Positions 1,439-44,597 of a stretch of 64,000 nt of DNA are shown here, in pieces. Numbering within the stretch: the stretch's first letter is position 1; every line of letters starts with the position of its first letter. The stretch is taken from assembly GCF_003612555.1 (NCBI RefSeq), contig NZ_RAZF01000001.1, positions 124,001 to 188,000 of the forward strand. Reading direction: 5' to 3'. The notes beneath the pieces were generated by a model. The model did not search any database. It was not told the DNA's origin and worked only from the letters and a program-made list of their open reading frames with translations. The position numbers were made by a program, and so were the translations under genes. This DNA comes from Acutalibacter sp. 1XD8-33 (lineage in GTDB: Bacteria; Bacillota; Clostridia; Oscillospirales; Acutalibacteraceae).

Positions 1439-1715
1439 ACTAGACCTCTTGCAAAGTCGATCAGATTGGGCAAATTACGCGGTCCAGGGGCGTTAGGCCC
1501 CTGGTAGGGTGTGGGGGTGAGTGTTCTGCCGGATACGTGGCAAAGCCAAGTATTGCAGACAATGCTGCGAACCGACCGAAGCGGGGAAGCTCCCCAGTGG
1601 GGAGCGTTCTGACCCGACCAAGTCGGCAGACGAGACCAGCTGAGACTCAAAGCCCCACGGTCTTGCCGCAGGCGGCGGTCTGTGCCGCCGAAGGCCCCTC
1701 AGTACTCAAAAAAAT
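1439..1715 (+). repeat. Family A multi-hairpin repeat, copy R1
   Basis: This non-coding stretch fills the gap between the lipoprotein gene and rplK. At 1589-1605 it has a perfect 17-base palindrome (GCTCCCCAGTGGGGAGC), then an 8-base spacer, then the conserved 17-mer CCGACCAAGTCGGCAGA at 1614-1630. A weaker unit precedes it (hairpin about 1550-1565, motif 1572-1588). The layout matches copies near 6, 24.9, 32.9 and 44.4 kb. It lies inside an apparent ribosomal-protein transcription unit. The remaining bases up to 1858 hold only the rplK ribosome site. Confidence 0.75.
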
Positions 1716-5954: not shown

Positions 5955-6237
5955 TTACTAATAGTACGTTTTGGCCTCCGGCAACTGGGGGGGCTTTTCA
6001 CCTGCCGGTTCGGTTGGTGCTTGACGGTCCCCACCGGGGACCAGCACCCCCACACGACGACCAGCTGTAAACTTGGCGTTGCCAAGTTTTGACCAGCTGG
6101 ACCGGCCAAGGCTATCCAGGTTAAAAGTTTCGTCCACCTTTTCAAAGGTGGTGGGGCTTTCAGGGGTGAAACCCCTGAACCGCCGGAGCCGCCGATCTGT
6201 GGCGGCGGAGGCCACACAGTATTACTCTCAAAAAGTA
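5955..6237 (-). repeat. Family A multi-hairpin repeat, copy R2
   Basis: This fills most of the gap between the convergent M23 and RND genes. On the minus strand it holds one full unit: palindrome at 6026-6042 (GGTCC-CCGGTGG-GGACC), 8-base spacer, then CCAACCGAACCGGCAGG at 6001-6017. Further hairpins follow at 6081-6099 (AACTTGGC arms), about 6133-6150 (CCACCTTT arms) and 6161-6177 (CAGGGGT arms, again 17 bases). The right half, 6105-6235, is almost identical to the complement of copy R4 near 29.9 kb. Confidence 0.8.
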
Positions 6238-6303: not shown

Positions 6304-9300
6304 TTATTCCACGTCCACCTTCCGCAGCTCTTTCTTTGCCAGGATATCATACATCGCGGGCACCACGAAGAGGGTCATCAGCGTGGCGTAGAGCAGGCCC
6401 CCAATGCACACAATGGCTACCGGCTGCATCATCTCGGCCCCCATGCCCGTGGCCAAAGCCATAAAGACCAGGCCCAGCACCGTAGTAAGCACCGTCATGA
6501 GGATGGGGCGCATCCGGGTGCGCCCCGCCAACAGAATGGCGTCTTGCCGGGACATCCCTGTCAGGCGCAGCTGGTTGATATAGTCGATGAGCACAATGCC
6601 GTTGTTCACGATGATTCCCGCCAGCATGATAAAGCCAATCATGCTCACCACGCTCACCTCCATGCCGCAGAGATACAGAGCCAGAAAGCCTCCTGTAAAG
6701 GCCAGAGGAATGGTGAACATCACGATAAAAGGCAGCAACAGTGATTGGAACTGGATCACCATAATCAAATAGATAATCAGGATCGCCAGGGCTGCCATCT
6801 GCATCAGCTGGCCCATGGCCTCCATAATCGTCTCGTTCTCTCCCGCCATCTCCCAGACCACGCCCTGGGGCGGCTGGTAATTCCTCAGGGCCTTTTCCGC
6901 CTCCCCGGTAACCAGGGTGACGTTGTATCCCTCCTCCAACTGAGCGCTTACCGTAAGGACCCGGTTCTGATTTTCCCGCCGGACGGCGTTCAGGCTCTGG
7001 CGGTCCTCAAATCTGGCAATGCGGATCAAGGGAACTTCCTCTGTCTCTCCGGTCAGCCGGTCTGTGGCGGATACCGTAAGGCTTTTGACATAGCCCTCGT
7101 CCATCTCTCCATCCTTGGGATGGACCACCAGCACATCCTGGGCGAAGCCTTCGATATTCATCGATGTAGCGGCTGAGCTCTCTCCAATCGCCGCGCTGAC
7201 GCTCTGATAGACCTGGGCAATGGTGAGACCGTTTTCCATAGCCTTGTTTTTGTCCACCACAATGCGCAGCTCCGGGGAGGAATCCTCCAGGTCGCTCTCT
7301 ACCTCCCCGACTCCGTCTACGTCCGCCAGAAGCTCGCTTATCTGATTGGCCGTGTCGATCAAGCTGTCCATATCGTTCCCCCGCAGCTTGACCTCCACGC
7401 CGGAACCGCTCATCGCAGACATATAGGCGCTCATATCCATACTTCCCTGGGCAGAAACCTGGCAGTCCAGATCTCCGCAGGCGGCTTCGATGTCTTTGGC
7501 GGCCTCGCTGTCCTTGACGCCCGTGTTTTCATCCAGAAGCACATAGATGGACACCGCGCCGTCTCCGCCGGCCATCATGCTCATCATGTCGCCCGCACCA
7601 GAGCCGGAACCGCCGGAGGCCATGGCTCCCACTGTGGTAACATAGTCCAGACCCAAAATCCGCTCTGTGATCTGGTCTGCCATGGCGGTGCGCTCTTCAA
7701 AGCTGTGGTCCTCCCGATCCTCCCCGGGAAGGGTAAAGCTGACCGTAAGCTGGCTGCCGCTCATGGCGGGCATGAAGATGAAACCACGGGATAAGGCCAG
7801 AACCACGCTTCCCGCCAGCAGTACCAGGGACAACGTCAGGCAGACCCATTTGTGCCGCAAAGAGGCCGCCCCCAGCCGCCCGTATCCATTGAGCACCCGG
7901 TCAAAAACCCCGTGGGATTTGGGGGTGCTGGCCCGCAAGGTCGTGGAGGTCATGGCAGGCACCAGGGTGATGGCCACAAAAAGGCTTGCCAGCAGGGAAT
8001 AGCCGATGGTCAGGGCCATGTCTGTAAACAGTTGGCGGGTAACCCCATCCACAAAGACGATGGGCAGAAACACGCATACCGTGGTGAAGGTGGAGGCGAC
8101 AATGGCCCCTGTGACCTGCACCGCTCCCTGGACAGAGGCCTTGGCGGCGGAGACGCCCTCATTTCGCAAGCGGTAGATGTTCTCAATAACTACCACGGAG
8201 TTATCTACCAGCATTCCCACGCCCACCGCCAGGCCCGAAAGAGAGATGACGTTCAGGGTGACCCCTGAGAAGTGCATGAGCACAATAGCTACCAGCAGGG
8301 AAATCGGAATGGAAAAGGCAATGACAATGGTGGGACGCAGATCCCGCAGAAAGAACAGCAGAATCAGCACCGCCAAACCCGCGCCCAAAATCAGGTTTTG
8401 CAGCACGGTGTCCACCACAATGTAGATGTAATCCCCCTGATCGGAGAGGGTGGAGAAGCGCATCCCCTCATATTCCTCCGAGAGCTTCTCAAAGCGCTCC
8501 TGGATGTTCCGGGAAACCTGAGCGGTGGAATAAGTAGACTGCTTGGTAAAGGACAGCAGAAGGCCGTCCTCGCCGTTAATTTTGGCATAGAGCTCAGAGG
8601 CGTTGCTTTCAACGGCCACATCGGCCACGTCCCGCAGATAGACCTTACCGATGCCGTCATCGCCGGTGTCGAAGAGCAGCAGGTTTAGAAGCTCCTCCGG
8701 ATCCTCCAGCTCGTCGCCCACCCGCACCATGCATGAAACGCCGTCCTGCTCAATATATCCGGCCGGCATGGAGAAGTTCTGGGCTTTCAGGATAGAGGAG
8801 ACCATCTCCATGGTGATCTCCAGCTTGGCATTTTGATAGGCGGCGGATTTCTGGCTGTCAAAATCCTCCCGGGCGGTGTCCAGCTGTTCCCTGGCGGCTT
8901 CCAGCTGCTGCTGGGCGGCGGCCACGGCGGATTGACCTGAGATGATCTGGGAGAGCCCGGAGCTGATCTGCATTATACCGCTGGCCTGCTGCTTTGAGAG
9001 CTCTTTGAGAGCCTGGTCTACCGTCACCCCGCCGGTCTCCAGCTGCTTGTTGGTGGCTTCCAGCTGGGCTTTCCCGGCGATGAGCTGGTCCAGGTTTTTT
9101 TGAGCCTCGTCGATGGAGGCGTCTAGCTTTTCCGGGTCAGCGCCCCCGGCGGAGGCCATGGCTTTCGCCTCCGCGATGGCCTTAGCTACCCTCTCCCGGC
9201 CGGCCTGGAGCTCGGCCAGCTTCTGGGGTGCTTCCCCGGCGGTGGTTTCAAAGGCGGCGAATCCCGCCTCTGCAGCGGCGATCTGAGGGGCAAGGGCTTC

Positions 9301-10371
9301 CAGCTGCGTCTGGATGGCGGCGGCTTCCGGGCTTTCCGGCTCCAGCCCGGCCATCTGCTCTTGGAGGGCCGCCCGCTGGGCTGTCAACGCCTGATAGCCG
9401 TTGAGGAGCTCCTGAAGCCCGGCGACAGCTTGGTCCAACGAGGCGAGCTGTTGGTTCAGTTGATCCAGGGAGAGCTTCAGGCTGTTCAGCTTATCTAAAG
9501 CATCCTCCAGCTGTTTCTGATTCTGTCCCATAGTGGTTAGCTGGGCTGTGATCTGGGCCTTGGCGGACTCCAGCTCCACCTTCTGAGAGATCAGCTGTCC
9601 CTGGGCTCCCGCCGTCTGCTGGACAAGCTGTTCCTGACCCTGTTCCAGCTGCTGGCGCTGTCCGGCCAACTGATCCGCTTGCTCCTGGGCTTCGGAAAGA
9701 CCGTCCTCAATCTCCTTGCCGCTGCTGTCCAGCTCCTCCTGGGCTTCGGCGAATTTATTATCCAGCTTCTCTTTCATCCGGGCGTTGAGAGCGTCAATTT
9801 TGTCCTGACGCAGCCGGACGGCAACGCTCTCTTCCACATTGCCGCTGGCGGACACGCTGGCCACGCCTTCAACGCCCTCCAGTTTGGTCATCAGTTCAGA
9901 GTCCAGCAGATTGGTAAGGGCAGCGTTGTCCATGCCGTCCATTTCTACGGCGGCAACGGTAACGGGCAGCATACTGGGGTTGATCTTCATGATGTAGGGC
10001 GTGCCCACCATATCGTCCCAGCCGCCGGAGACAGAATTGAGCTTCTCCCGAATATCCGCGGTAAGGGTATCCATATTGGCGTCATCGGTGAGCTGGAGCA
10101 TAACCTGGGAGGCGTTCTCCTGGGAGACGGAGTTGATCTCCTCCACATGATCCAGCGTAGCCATAGCCTGCTCAATGGGCCGGGTGACCTCCTGCTCTAC
10201 CTCTTCCGGAGTCGCGCCGGGATAGGCTGTGACGATCACGGCATAGGGCAAATTGATGTTGGGAAGAAGGTCCGGGGTCATCCGGGAAAAAGCCACGGCC
10301 CCCAGGACCAAAGCAATCACAACGCCCACAAGAACGGTCATGGGCTTCTTAACGCTGAATCGGGAAAACAT
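6304..10371 (-). CDS. RND-family efflux permease with long coiled-coil insertion
   Basis: A 1355-residue permease, about 300 residues longer than AcrB. It has the RND pattern: helix 1 at residues 10-30, a first extracytoplasmic domain, then TM blocks with GVGMLVDNSVVVIENIYR (the TM4 charge-relay region, Asp-Asn here where AcrB has Asp-Asp) and a repeat of the topology in the second half ending with GIIVNNGIVLIDYI. Residues about 200-515 are a Gln/Leu/Ala-rich coiled coil inserted into the first outer domain, as in several Gram-positive RND proteins. No membrane-fusion or outer-channel gene is nearby. AGAAGGGA precedes the ATG. It probably exports drugs, lipids or surfactants; the substrate cannot be read from sequence. 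Confidence 0.9.
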   Translation of the reverse strand: MFSRFSVKKPMTVLVGVVIALVLGAVAFSRMTPDLLPNINLPYAVIVTAYPGATPEEVEQEVTRPIEQAMATLDHVEEINSVSQENASQVMLQLTDDANMDTLTADIREKLNSVSGGWDDMVGTPYIMKINPSMLPVTVAAVEMDGMDNAALTNLLDSELMTKLEGVEGVASVSASGNVEESVAVRLRQDKIDALNARMKEKLDNKFAEAQEELDSSGKEIEDGLSEAQEQADQLAGQRQQLEQGQEQLVQQTAGAQGQLISQKVELESAKAQITAQLTTMGQNQKQLEDALDKLNSLKLSLDQLNQQLASLDQAVAGLQELLNGYQALTAQRAALQEQMAGLEPESPEAAAIQTQLEALAPQIAAAEAGFAAFETTAGEAPQKLAELQAGRERVAKAIAEAKAMASAGGADPEKLDASIDEAQKNLDQLIAGKAQLEATNKQLETGGVTVDQALKELSKQQASGIMQISSGLSQIISGQSAVAAAQQQLEAAREQLDTAREDFDSQKSAAYQNAKLEITMEMVSSILKAQNFSMPAGYIEQDGVSCMVRVGDELEDPEELLNLLLFDTGDDGIGKVYLRDVADVAVESNASELYAKINGEDGLLLSFTKQSTYSTAQVSRNIQERFEKLSEEYEGMRFSTLSDQGDYIYIVVDTVLQNLILGAGLAVLILLFFLRDLRPTIVIAFSIPISLLVAIVLMHFSGVTLNVISLSGLAVGVGMLVDNSVVVIENIYRLRNEGVSAAKASVQGAVQVTGAIVASTFTTVCVFLPIVFVDGVTRQLFTDMALTIGYSLLASLFVAITLVPAMTSTTLRASTPKSHGVFDRVLNGYGRLGAASLRHKWVCLTLSLVLLAGSVVLALSRGFIFMPAMSGSQLTVSFTLPGEDREDHSFEERTAMADQITERILGLDYVTTVGAMASGGSGSGAGDMMSMMAGGDGAVSIYVLLDENTGVKDSEAAKDIEAACGDLDCQVSAQGSMDMSAYMSAMSGSGVEVKLRGNDMDSLIDTANQISELLADVDGVGEVESDLEDSSPELRIVVDKNKAMENGLTIAQVYQSVSAAIGESSAATSMNIEGFAQDVLVVHPKDGEMDEGYVKSLTVSATDRLTGETEEVPLIRIARFEDRQSLNAVRRENQNRVLTVSAQLEEGYNVTLVTGEAEKALRNYQPPQGVVWEMAGENETIMEAMGQLMQMAALAILIIYLIMVIQFQSLLLPFIVMFTIPLAFTGGFLALYLCGMEVSVVSMIGFIMLAGIIVNNGIVLIDYINQLRLTGMSRQDAILLAGRTRMRPILMTVLTTVLGLVFMALATGMGAEMMQPVAIVCIGGLLYATLMTLFVVPAMYDILAKKELRKVDVE

Positions 10372-24717: not shown

Positions 24718-25245
24718 AGTAGTAGGAGGCCTCCGGCGGGGAGGGGTTCCGCCCCTCCACGCCTCCAAACTTTTTGAAAAGAAGTTTAAGACGTTACCTT
24801 CGGTAAGTCTCAAAAACTTTTACCTTGGTTAGCTGATTGCGATAAAGCCAGACACATCGGCCGGTCCAGCTGGTCAAAACTTGGCAAGGCCAAGTTTACA
24901 CCTGGTCGTCGTGTGGGGGTGCTGGTCCCCTGTGGGGACCGTCAAGCACCGACCGAACCGGCAGGTGAGACCGAAACCCCACGATCTTGCCGTAGGGGTG
25001 AGCGTGTGCCTGTGGCACACAAGCCGCGAACCGACCGAGCCGGCAGGCGAGAGTACGCCCTTTGGCCCGGAGGCCACTCCGTATGACTTTCAAAAACGAT
25101 AACCCTCTAGCAAGCTGAGAGCGCCCGCACCCAGCTTGGCAGAGTTTTGCGAAGCAAAACTCATGACACACCGCGAAACCCAGCCTGCTCCTTTCGCCTC
25201 GCTTGGCGCGGTGTGCCGGAGGCCTTCTATTACTCAAAACAAAAT
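24718..25245 (+). repeat. Family A multi-hairpin repeat, copy R3 (two tandem units)
   Basis: The longest copy, filling the gap between the pot promoter and the small membrane protein. Unit 1: palindrome 24924-24940 (GGTCC-CCTGTGG-GGACC), 8-base spacer, CCGACCGAACCGGCAGG at 24949-24965. Unit 2: palindrome 25004-25020 (GTGTG-CCTGTGG-CACAC), 10-base spacer, CCGACCGAGCCGGCAGG at 25031-25047. Extra hairpins include GGAGGGG/CCCCTCC at 24740-24758, AACTTGGC/GCCAAGTT about 24880-24898, and GAGTTTTGC/GCAAAACTC about 25141-25161. No convincing gene lies in this gap. Confidence 0.8.
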
Positions 25246-26949: not shown

Positions 26950-27140
26950 TTTCACCTCCGTCACATGTGGTTCGTCCAAAACAAAAGCGCCCCTCCCGGC
27001 GGAAAGGCGGGAAAAGCGCTGGAATTTAATCTGTCAACCGGAGGCGGACCTCCTGTTCCATACGCTTATCTTCCCTCGGCAGGCCGGATATCCGTTTACC
27101 GGCGCGAAACCGCGCCGTACCTGCTGTCTTTGGTTGGACA
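26950..27140 (-). ncRNA. L10 (rplJ) autoregulatory leader
   Basis: On the minus strand the leader contains AAAGACAGCAGGTACG ... CCTGCCGAGG, the conserved core of the L10-leader family, and later AAATTCCAGCGCTTTTCCCG with a GCGC...GCGC hairpin before rplJ. In this family free L10-L12 complex binds the leader and represses the operon. The element lies between the mapped promoter and the TTG start. Confidence 0.85.
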
Positions 27141-27148
27141 GCTTGTTT

Positions 27149-27177
27149 ATTATAGCACTTTCCAGAAGATCTGTCAA
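27149..27177 (-). promoter_or_regulatory. Sigma-A promoter of rplJL
   Basis: On the minus strand TTGACA (27172-27177), a 17-base spacer and TATAAT (27149-27154): a perfect consensus promoter placed just before the L10 leader. Confidence 0.92.
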
Positions 27178-32904: not shown

Positions 32905-33015
32905 AGCGCTGGTCTCCAATGGAGACCAGCGCCGTCCGAACCGAGGAAGTTCCTGGGTGGGGAGCGTTTTGACCTGACCGAGTCGGCAGACGAGACCAGG
33001 TGAGAGGAAATCCCT
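32905..33015 (+). repeat. Family A repeat, copy R5 (two close units)
   Basis: Unit 1: palindrome 32911-32927 (GGTCT-CCAATGG-AGACC, extended by GCGCT/AGCGC), then 8 bases and a diverged motif CCGAACCGAGG. Unit 2: 32949-32965 (GTTCC-TGGGTGG-GGAGC, arms paired except one G-T), then 8 bases and CTGACCGAGTCGGCAGA at 32974-32990. It lies just after the aldo/keto reductase stop. Confidence 0.75.
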
Positions 33016-35409: not shown

Positions 35410-35735
35410 GGGGTCTCCTGCGAGAGGCTTTGTCTCGCCTGCTCCGCAGTCGAGATAGGGAACCCCCGACGAGGGTTCCCTACGCAAAACGTCCCACCGG
35501 GACGTTTATGCTACCCTCCTGCGTTGTTTTCTCAGGAGTATAAGGGCAAGACCGTGGGACTCCGTCCCACACCCTGCAACCTTTGAAAAGGTTGACGAAA
35601 CTTTTACGTTGGCTGGCTAGGCGAAAACGTGAAAATTTCTGCGACGAACGAAGTGAGGAAGCAGGGGAAAAGTTTTTGATCAAACTTTTTTCAAAAATTT
35701 TGCGGAGTGTGAGGCGGAGCCTCACGACCTTAAAT
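35410..35735. repeat. Family A-type hairpin cluster, copy R7, between groS and groL
   Basis: The gap is filled with hairpins: TAGGGAACCC/GGGTTCCCTA about 35457-35483, AAACGTCCC/GGGACGTTT about 35487-35507, the 17-base GTGGGAC-TCC-GTCCCAC at 35554-35570, and CAACCTTT/AAAGGTTG just after. The last pair corresponds to the CCACCTTT hairpin of R2 and R4. The CCGACCGA unit is absent. No gene is seen here. Confidence 0.65.
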
Positions 35736-43125: not shown

Positions 43126-43230
43126 TATAGTTAATTCAGTTCAAAAGAATCAAAACATTCTTTTGAACCAGGCGGCAGAGCCGCCCAACTTGAGAATTGG
43201 ATTTTTCAATATCTCAAGTGAATTTACTAT
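43126..43230 (+). repeat. Family D short hairpin element, copy 4 (reference copy, 105 bp)
   Basis: The ends are TATAGTTAATTCA and TGAATTTACTAT, inverted with one difference. Three hairpins follow in order: TTCAAAAGAAT/ATTCTTTTGAA, GGCGGC/GCCGCC, and ACTTGAGA/TCTCAAGT. It ends exactly where a coding-like remnant begins at 43230. Confidence 0.7.
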
Positions 43231-44289: not shown

Positions 44290-44597
44290 AGTATGCTTTT
44301 TCAGAGAGTGTTTTGGGGTCTCGCCTGCCGGCTCGGTCGGGTCAGAACGGTTGCCACTGGCAACCTTCCCTCTCCGCAGCCAGAGTTAACCAAACTTTTA
44401 CCCTGGTTAGCTTTGACCGGTCCAGCTGGTCAACGTAAAAGTTTCGCCAGACTTTTCAAAGGCTACGGGGTTTTTAGGGGGCGACAATCGCCAGTGGCGA
44501 TTTCCCGTCGCCGACCGAACCGGCAGGTGAGAAGAACCCCTAAACCGCCGGAGGCCTGCGCAGCGAAGCGAGCGCCACTTTCAAAAAGTATACAAAA
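44290..44597. repeat. Family A multi-hairpin repeat, copy R6 (two inverted units)
   Basis: Two full units face in opposite directions. Minus-strand unit: palindrome 44349-44365 (GGTTG-CCAGTGG-CAACC), 8-base spacer, CCGACCGAGCCGGCAGG at 44324-44340. Plus-strand unit: palindrome 44486-44502 (AATCG-CCAGTGG-CGATT), 8-base spacer, CCGACCGAACCGGCAGG at 44511-44527. Between them are GACCGGTCCAGCTGGTC and the AAAGTTT/AGACTTTT hairpins also seen in R2 and R3. It separates two convergent genes. Confidence 0.82.

Follow-up and report, generated by a model that had tools for sequence, protein, structure and literature searches.

A two-hairpin unit of about 52 nt in Acutalibacter, its relatives and phages as a candidate strand-specific palindromic mobile element

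Results and discussion

In the genome of Acutalibacter sp. 1XD8-33 (the home genome below) and in related bacteria and phages, we find a unit of about 52 nt that is present as an exact block without target duplication, after GG and most often before C, with flanks that form hairpins beyond chance. Our preferred reading, to which we give a probability of roughly 0.6, is that this is a palindromic mobile element, non-autonomous and strand-specific, recognised in the form of a single folded DNA strand. A more specific version, in which a fold-recognised ~52-nt element inserts exactly in bacteria and phages, often into hairpin loops, by CC-GG target pairing and with an enzyme class new to this role, is offered tentatively. 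The window analysed here is the whole 64-kb stretch at positions 124001-188000 of contig C17, in which an initial annotation had described complementary arms around a fixed core at a set distance from a 17-mer; that pattern is two hairpins of one unit.

Anatomy of the unit and its copies in the window

The unit has the layout (host GG)^-P1-P2(N5-CC-NGT-GG-N5')-linker-P1'-GACCGA-P3(N3-GGCA-N3')-GAGAC^. Inspection of the aligned units by eye gives a P1 stem of 3 to 7 pairs, a P2 of seven pairs with an NGT-type loop closed by CC/GG, and, between P2 and P1', either a linker of about 4 bases or an additional hairpin; the 3' strand of P1 ends in CC and is followed by GACCGA, P3 (three pairs and GGCA) and GAGAC. 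P1 comes in the subtypes GGTGCT/AGCACC, GGCGAC/GTCGCC, GGTGAGC/GCGAACC and GGGGA/GACCC, and a tandem G-A possibly adjoins P3. This alignment (A1) holds 75 of 119 representatives, themselves drawn from 187 parsed units, and because its rows were selected for a paired P2 (G-T allowed) and an exactly complementary P3, pair counts made on it are biased towards pairing. The most frequent length is 52 (42 of 65 units of the home genome and 26 of the 98 other parsed units), a length of 55 is found in 18/65 and 11/98, and sizes are mostly 52 to 55 nt, reaching ~71 nt with the extra hairpin.

All seven palindromes claimed for the window are present, and in each the 5-base arms are exact complements. 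A covariance model trained on 75 rows of the unit, four of them units from the window, recovers the same seven places at E values of 9e-17 to 4e-8. The 8-base spacer (10 in one unit) of the initial annotation breaks down at 32911, where the 17-mer lies at 32974, beyond an inserted second unit (32945-32996), and the 17-mer nearest to the palindrome is a degraded half. The unit at 1589 is likewise nested within another (1518-1646). Over-represented in the window (9 matches at ≤3 mismatches against 1.47 expected, two of them, with 3 mismatches each, outside units), the 17-mer is the P3 region, and what had been taken for a fixed flank is mostly a hairpin with varying arms that pair (ACC/GGT, GCC/GGC, GTC/GAC, AGC/GCT). 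The features of the window are:

24920..24971, + strand: 52-nt unit, the candidate mobile unit of this study; P2 24924-24940, GACCGA 24951-24956, P3 24957-24966, 3' end GAGAC; flanks joined exactly at C28:253518(-)
24905..24919, + strand: left arm of the host hairpin, GTCGTCGTGTGGGGG; its terminal GG could close P1 by pairing with the CC that precedes GACCGA
24972..24984, + strand: right arm of the host hairpin, CGAAACCCCACGA; begins with C at the insertion point
24999..25053, + strand: second unit, 55 nt, P1 GGUGAGC/GCGAACC (tandem G-A); P2 25004-25020, P3 25039-25048, ends GAGAG
1585..1636, + strand: 52-nt unit lying inside another unit's P3 loop (GG^CA); P2 1589-1605; nested case C17:125573
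1518..1646, + strand: outer unit split by 1585-1636; outer P3 arms AGC 1580-1582 and GCT 1639-1641
5995..6046, - strand: unit; P2 6026-6042; final bases GAAAA, not GAGAC
32945..32996, + strand: unit lying inside the 32911 unit's second hairpin; own P2 imperfect
32907..33006, + strand: outer degraded unit split by 32945-32996; P2 32911-32927; outer P3 arms ACC 32940-32942 and GGT 32999-33001
44318..44368, - strand: unit with P1 type GGG-GA/GA-CCC; P2 44349-44365; 5' end placed to within about one base
44482..44533, + strand: 52-nt unit with P1 type GGCGAC/GTCGCC, ends GAGAA; P2 44486-44502; sits in a TTTTTAGGGG..CCCCTAAA hairpin

A similar palindrome at 35505(-) has no 17-mer and is not a unit, so the palindrome alone is insufficient to define one; its sequence, ACGTCCCGGTGGGACGT, recurs at L007 and L015 in another repeated module, in which the P3 part does not follow directly. 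The window also holds an AcrB-family transporter gene at 6307-10371 (-), which the 6026 unit adjoins, a ribosomal protein L10 leader (Rfam RF00557) at 26972-27151 (-) and, at 43126-43230, a different palindrome-rich repeat of ~105 nt with many matches of 73-82% across the genus and no convincing Rfam match.

Arm pairing and the nature of the fold

That the arms change and keep pairing, as the initial annotation had proposed, was confirmed well beyond the window. Among 178 anchored units, home and foreign, P2 is complementary at all five bases in 159, against a mean of 14.5 and a best of 27 in 500 arm shuffles; the test required an exact CCNGTGG anchor, which set aside 68 of 246 units, and made no use of the arms in selection. 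Rather than chance pairing or a single arm sequence, there are 30 different paired P2 arm sequences. Of 122 motif matches from 0.91 Mb of home DNA, 103 have P3 arms that complement each other exactly, again with the arms unused in selection, and the arms fall into five classes. Paired P2 cells of A1 that depart from the commonest pair do so at both positions in 154 instances and at a single position in one.

In RNA stems under selection, G-U pairs would be expected to be favoured. Our counts of pair types, with the arms unused in selection and 4 rows of fewer than three pairs dropped, revealed 916 Watson-Crick, 7 G-T, 8 A-C and 9 other pairs in the unselected P2 set (n=940), and 328, 13, 6 and 7, respectively, for P3 in the home genome; foreign P3 gave 462, 9, 12 and 36 with chance viral matches included. 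P2 gives wobble no preference, which argues against a conserved RNA, and the P3 excess of G-T over A-C is a slight lean towards RNA-type pairing and against the folded-DNA reading. Units run with flanking co-directional genes in 10 cases and against them in 9, showing no orientation bias on crude gene calls that place 34 of 67 units inside open reading frames of at least 100 codons; relative to frames of at least 200 codons, most such units lie near a frame end. In Rfam scans, no unit of the window reached the gathering score, 13 loci yielded tRNAs only, and two units searched at E up to 10 gave nothing plausible. A selected RNA hairpin, one of the readings offered earlier, is accordingly left without support by the P2 pair types and the lack of gene-orientation preference. 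Another, a double-stranded cruciform bound by protein, appears less likely given the asymmetry of the conserved loop (NRT), by which one strand is likely to be the one read. The sequence pattern suggests a folded DNA strand rather than RNA.

Insertion sites and signs of mobility

The clearest empty site belongs to the 24924 unit, whose flanks (15 bases on the left, 13 on the right) are joined on C28 without an intervening base, with outer sequence also similar; the unit is therefore an exact 52-nt insertion with no target duplication and an unshiftable junction. The insertion point lies between GG and C in a hairpin loop, and a sister unit on C21 matches the same empty site. The hairpin around the 44486 unit is uninterrupted on C28 and C12, where the loop bases differ, so its ends are not base-exact. 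As the twin sites are repeats, these comparisons within one genome concern related sites, not strains; coding matches in relatives of the genus have 65-82% identity, and orthologous empty sites were judged unpromising for that reason. Of the earlier suggestion that the pattern is the end of a non-autonomous element, non-autonomous stands and "end" does not, the joined empty site marking a whole small element.

Nesting repeats the same target. Ten units of one subtype interrupt the P3 loops of others at GG^CA, the outer arms being exactly complementary in 9/10 and pairing through G-T in the tenth, and these cases may go back to fewer events. Three contigs of the home genome (C6:1, C12:1, C14:1) all start within one nested unit common to them, and the repeat thus seems to interrupt the assembly; units stand at contig ends in this assembly and in some rumen MAGs. 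By eye, two spacerless head-to-tail units occupy the apparent variable loop of tRNA-Pro gene copies in G280 (L203), and other tRNA-like sites were seen at L074, L091, L108, L113 and L163, at which ARAGORN found no tRNA gene spanning the units.

Flank stems of at least 5 pairs surround 34 of 65 home units (mean 14.7, maximum 25 with exchanged flanks) and 36 of the 98 others (mean 12.3, maximum 19). The parse of flanks demanded GG, so the first two left-flank bases are fixed by construction; among the other units the third is G in 83/98 and the first right-flank base is C in 48/98. Of 118 units, 103 close with GG/CC and 109 are fully complementary there, a pairing that would fit target choice by pairing and that, with GG nearly invariant, lies beyond covariation analysis. 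Along two contigs the units count 24+/19- and 11+/13-, and this absence of strand bias counts against a single-strand model, since some single-strand transposons would show one.

Copy number and distribution

The motif GACCGARYCGGCAGRYGAGA has 295 matches at ≤3 mismatches in the 3.62-Mb home genome against 5 for the reversed pattern, which excludes chance. At ≤1 mismatch it occurs in 37 of 60 sampled genomes of relatives, the home genome included, single matches meaning little because 11 of the 60 also match the reversed control; copies at this threshold number 268 at home and 0 to 213 in other species of the genus. Farther out, an exact 22-mer was found in 8 of 391 class-level genomes, and the covariance model under strict filters found the unit in 3 of 299 phylum genomes (home included in both), with a weak G327 match unconfirmed. 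Among the matches listed, titles cover 80 of 112 stretches and are mostly Clostridia or Bacillota, including Ruminococcus, other Ruminococcaceae, Oscillospiraceae, Lachnospiraceae, Acutalibacter, Caccousia, Neglectibacter and Eubacterium coprostanoligenes, the exceptions being Bacterium D16-76 (unplaced by title) and a 4.2-kb contig labelled Alistipes. A further exception, a Halorubrum match, looks like a coding repeat without P2. In some rumen Ruminococcus MAGs (L099, L110, L111, L114, L115, L161, L169, L184 and L199) the unit lies within a longer repeat that ends CTCGGGGGACAT..TTAT, followed by variable sequence.

Phages carry the unit as well. Both hairpins are present in 7 of the 35 viral stretches with the P3 pattern (L257, L262, L264, L268, L272, L273, L280); the L261 unit is decayed, and the remaining 27 of 35, in which at least one hairpin is missing, appear to be chance matches. 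Six phage units lie within open reading frames, at four sites: two in DNA methyltransferase genes (L264 twice, L272, L280), one in the part preceding a DUF7768 domain (L268) and one in a tail-terminator-like protein (L273). Methyltransferase site 1 is empty in L272 and filled in L280, and site 2 is empty in L280 and filled in L264 and L272; Pfam identifies a C5 methylase in L272 and L280, the assignment of L264 comes from PHROGs only, and the L264 and L280 frames run off the available sequence. The genome record L152 has the same two insertions as L264, and in L262 the unit probably lies a short way upstream of the gene. Some phage proteins are lengthened by ~17 to 22 residues with the reading frame kept open. 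On crude gene calls we saw no convincing in-gene copy in the home genome, and blastn returned no match for one unit against phage records or for the 24860-25075 region against plasmids.

Candidate enzymes

Across 29 genomes of the genus, several of them 85-87% complete, none of the Y1, RVT_1, Y2/IS91 and Rep_trans families tracks copy number by eye. The Y1 transposase (PF01797) is found in 9/29, high-copy genomes both with and without it; the home genome has 3 matches and several high-copy genomes have none, with no match in G007 (99% complete, 49 copies) or G023 (86%, 136 copies). Reverse transcriptase (RVT_1) is found in 12/29, with 4 matches at home, and is missing from some high-copy genomes, giving no match in G021 (95% complete, 24 copies), G026 (86%, 213) or G023. 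Rep_trans occurs in 2/29, and Y2/IS91 in 0/29 in a search that was also silent in every control genome. The examined DNA held only three loose candidates for a larger autonomous element with a gene between unit halves, the halves being 155-3048 bases apart. A phage-borne or a lost enzyme would fit equally.

Proposed mechanism and alternative explanations

We propose that the unit would be recognised as a single folded DNA strand, with P2 and P3 read by their shape and by fixed loop and junction bases (NRT, GACCGA, GGCA, GAGAC) and not by stem sequence, so that the stems could drift provided both arms change together. The CC before GACCGA would pair with the GG of the target, and a single-strand nuclease or transposase acting in trans would join unit and target.

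The best-surviving alternative, which we consider unlikely, needs no dedicated enzyme, polymerase template switching at hairpins being aided by GG and C microhomologies. The GG^C junctions and hairpin flanks would agree with it, as would mosaics: at C6:58838 a hybrid repeat is seemingly joined within a shared AACTTGGC hairpin, and C12:49665 carries a fold-back duplicate of the P3 module, both possible signs of template switching or recombination. Random switching would not be expected to give the alike ends seen across hosts and phages, after GG (which the parse demanded) and with GAGAC or GAGAA.

A shade less probable is an RNA form copied by a reverse transcriptase, for example that of a group II intron, a route proposed for an ultra-short mitochondrial element of the fungus Podospora in work cited by PMC2670323. 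It would suit a short, structured unit inserted without target duplication, and the RVT_1 matches at home, but G021, G026 and G023 carry their copies with RVT_1 unmatched, and G-U pairs are nearly absent from P2.

Least probable is a structured RNA, cis-regulatory or small, kept in many copies for a functional fold: covarying stems, fixed loop and junction bases, the possible tandem G-A beside P3 and the home-genome P3 counts speak for it, and against it stand the lack of an Rfam match, the P2 pair types, the indifference to gene orientation, the nested, tRNA-like and in-frame insertions and a copy number of 0 to 268 within one genus.

For the preferred reading, a mobile element recognised as a folded DNA strand, it is the varying stems with constant loops, junctions and insertion site that point to shape recognition. 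Such an element is easily mistaken for a conserved RNA, and its many natural sites are available for seeking the enzyme.

Comparison with known systems

We read the unit as resembling Rickettsia palindromic elements (RPEs) and REPs, from which it differs in that its stems vary, its target is GG^C and none of the enzyme families tested tracks it. To our knowledge, stem sequence is constant within each family of bacterial palindromic repeats described so far. The unit lacks the hallmarks of a MITE of a DDE transposon: its ends (TGCT.. and ..GAGAC) are not inverted repeats, and the exact empty/filled pair is without target site duplication. Miniature elements of the IS200/IS605 type have subterminal hairpins, make no target duplication and pair their left target bases with an internal guide; the unit is likened to them in hairpins, lack of duplication and proposed target pairing, and is unlike them in that PF01797 has no match in G007 or G023 and the two contigs show no strand bias. 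The literature searched, with most subscription papers outside its scope, held no description of the element.

RPEs, according to PMC10969869 and PMC3733652, are small palindromic repeats that occupy intergenic positions as well as in-frame positions within genes, of ~150 bp in the former source, and two families (RPE-4, RPE-6) have a CGTC end tag in the latter. Our unit shares with them the in-frame position within protein genes, as the six phage units show, and is set apart by description, being ~52 nt with stem sequences that vary. It is also unlike RPE-4, RPE-6 and the GTAG/CGTC REPs in having no such end tag, GTAG or CGTC occurring within 6 nt of the unit end in 0 of 65 home and 2 of 98 other units.

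REP, REPIN and BIME repeats are similar in their hundreds of short palindromes and mosaics. The part of PMC3733652 dealing with their RAYT transposases reports recognition of single-stranded DNA, and lists CGTC REPs as also without a known transposase. The unit departs from RAYT-served REPs and REPINs in its variable stems and in the absence of a Y1 transposase tracking copy number, and from all three in that its own P3 loop serves as target. Palindromic repeats of Volvox organelles, as summarised in PMC2670323, average ~50 nt, have a recurring TAAA/TTTA loop and are often inserted into each other; in size, recurring loop and mutual insertion our unit is like them, and it differs in residing in bacterial chromosomes and phages, in having two hairpins and in its GG^C target.
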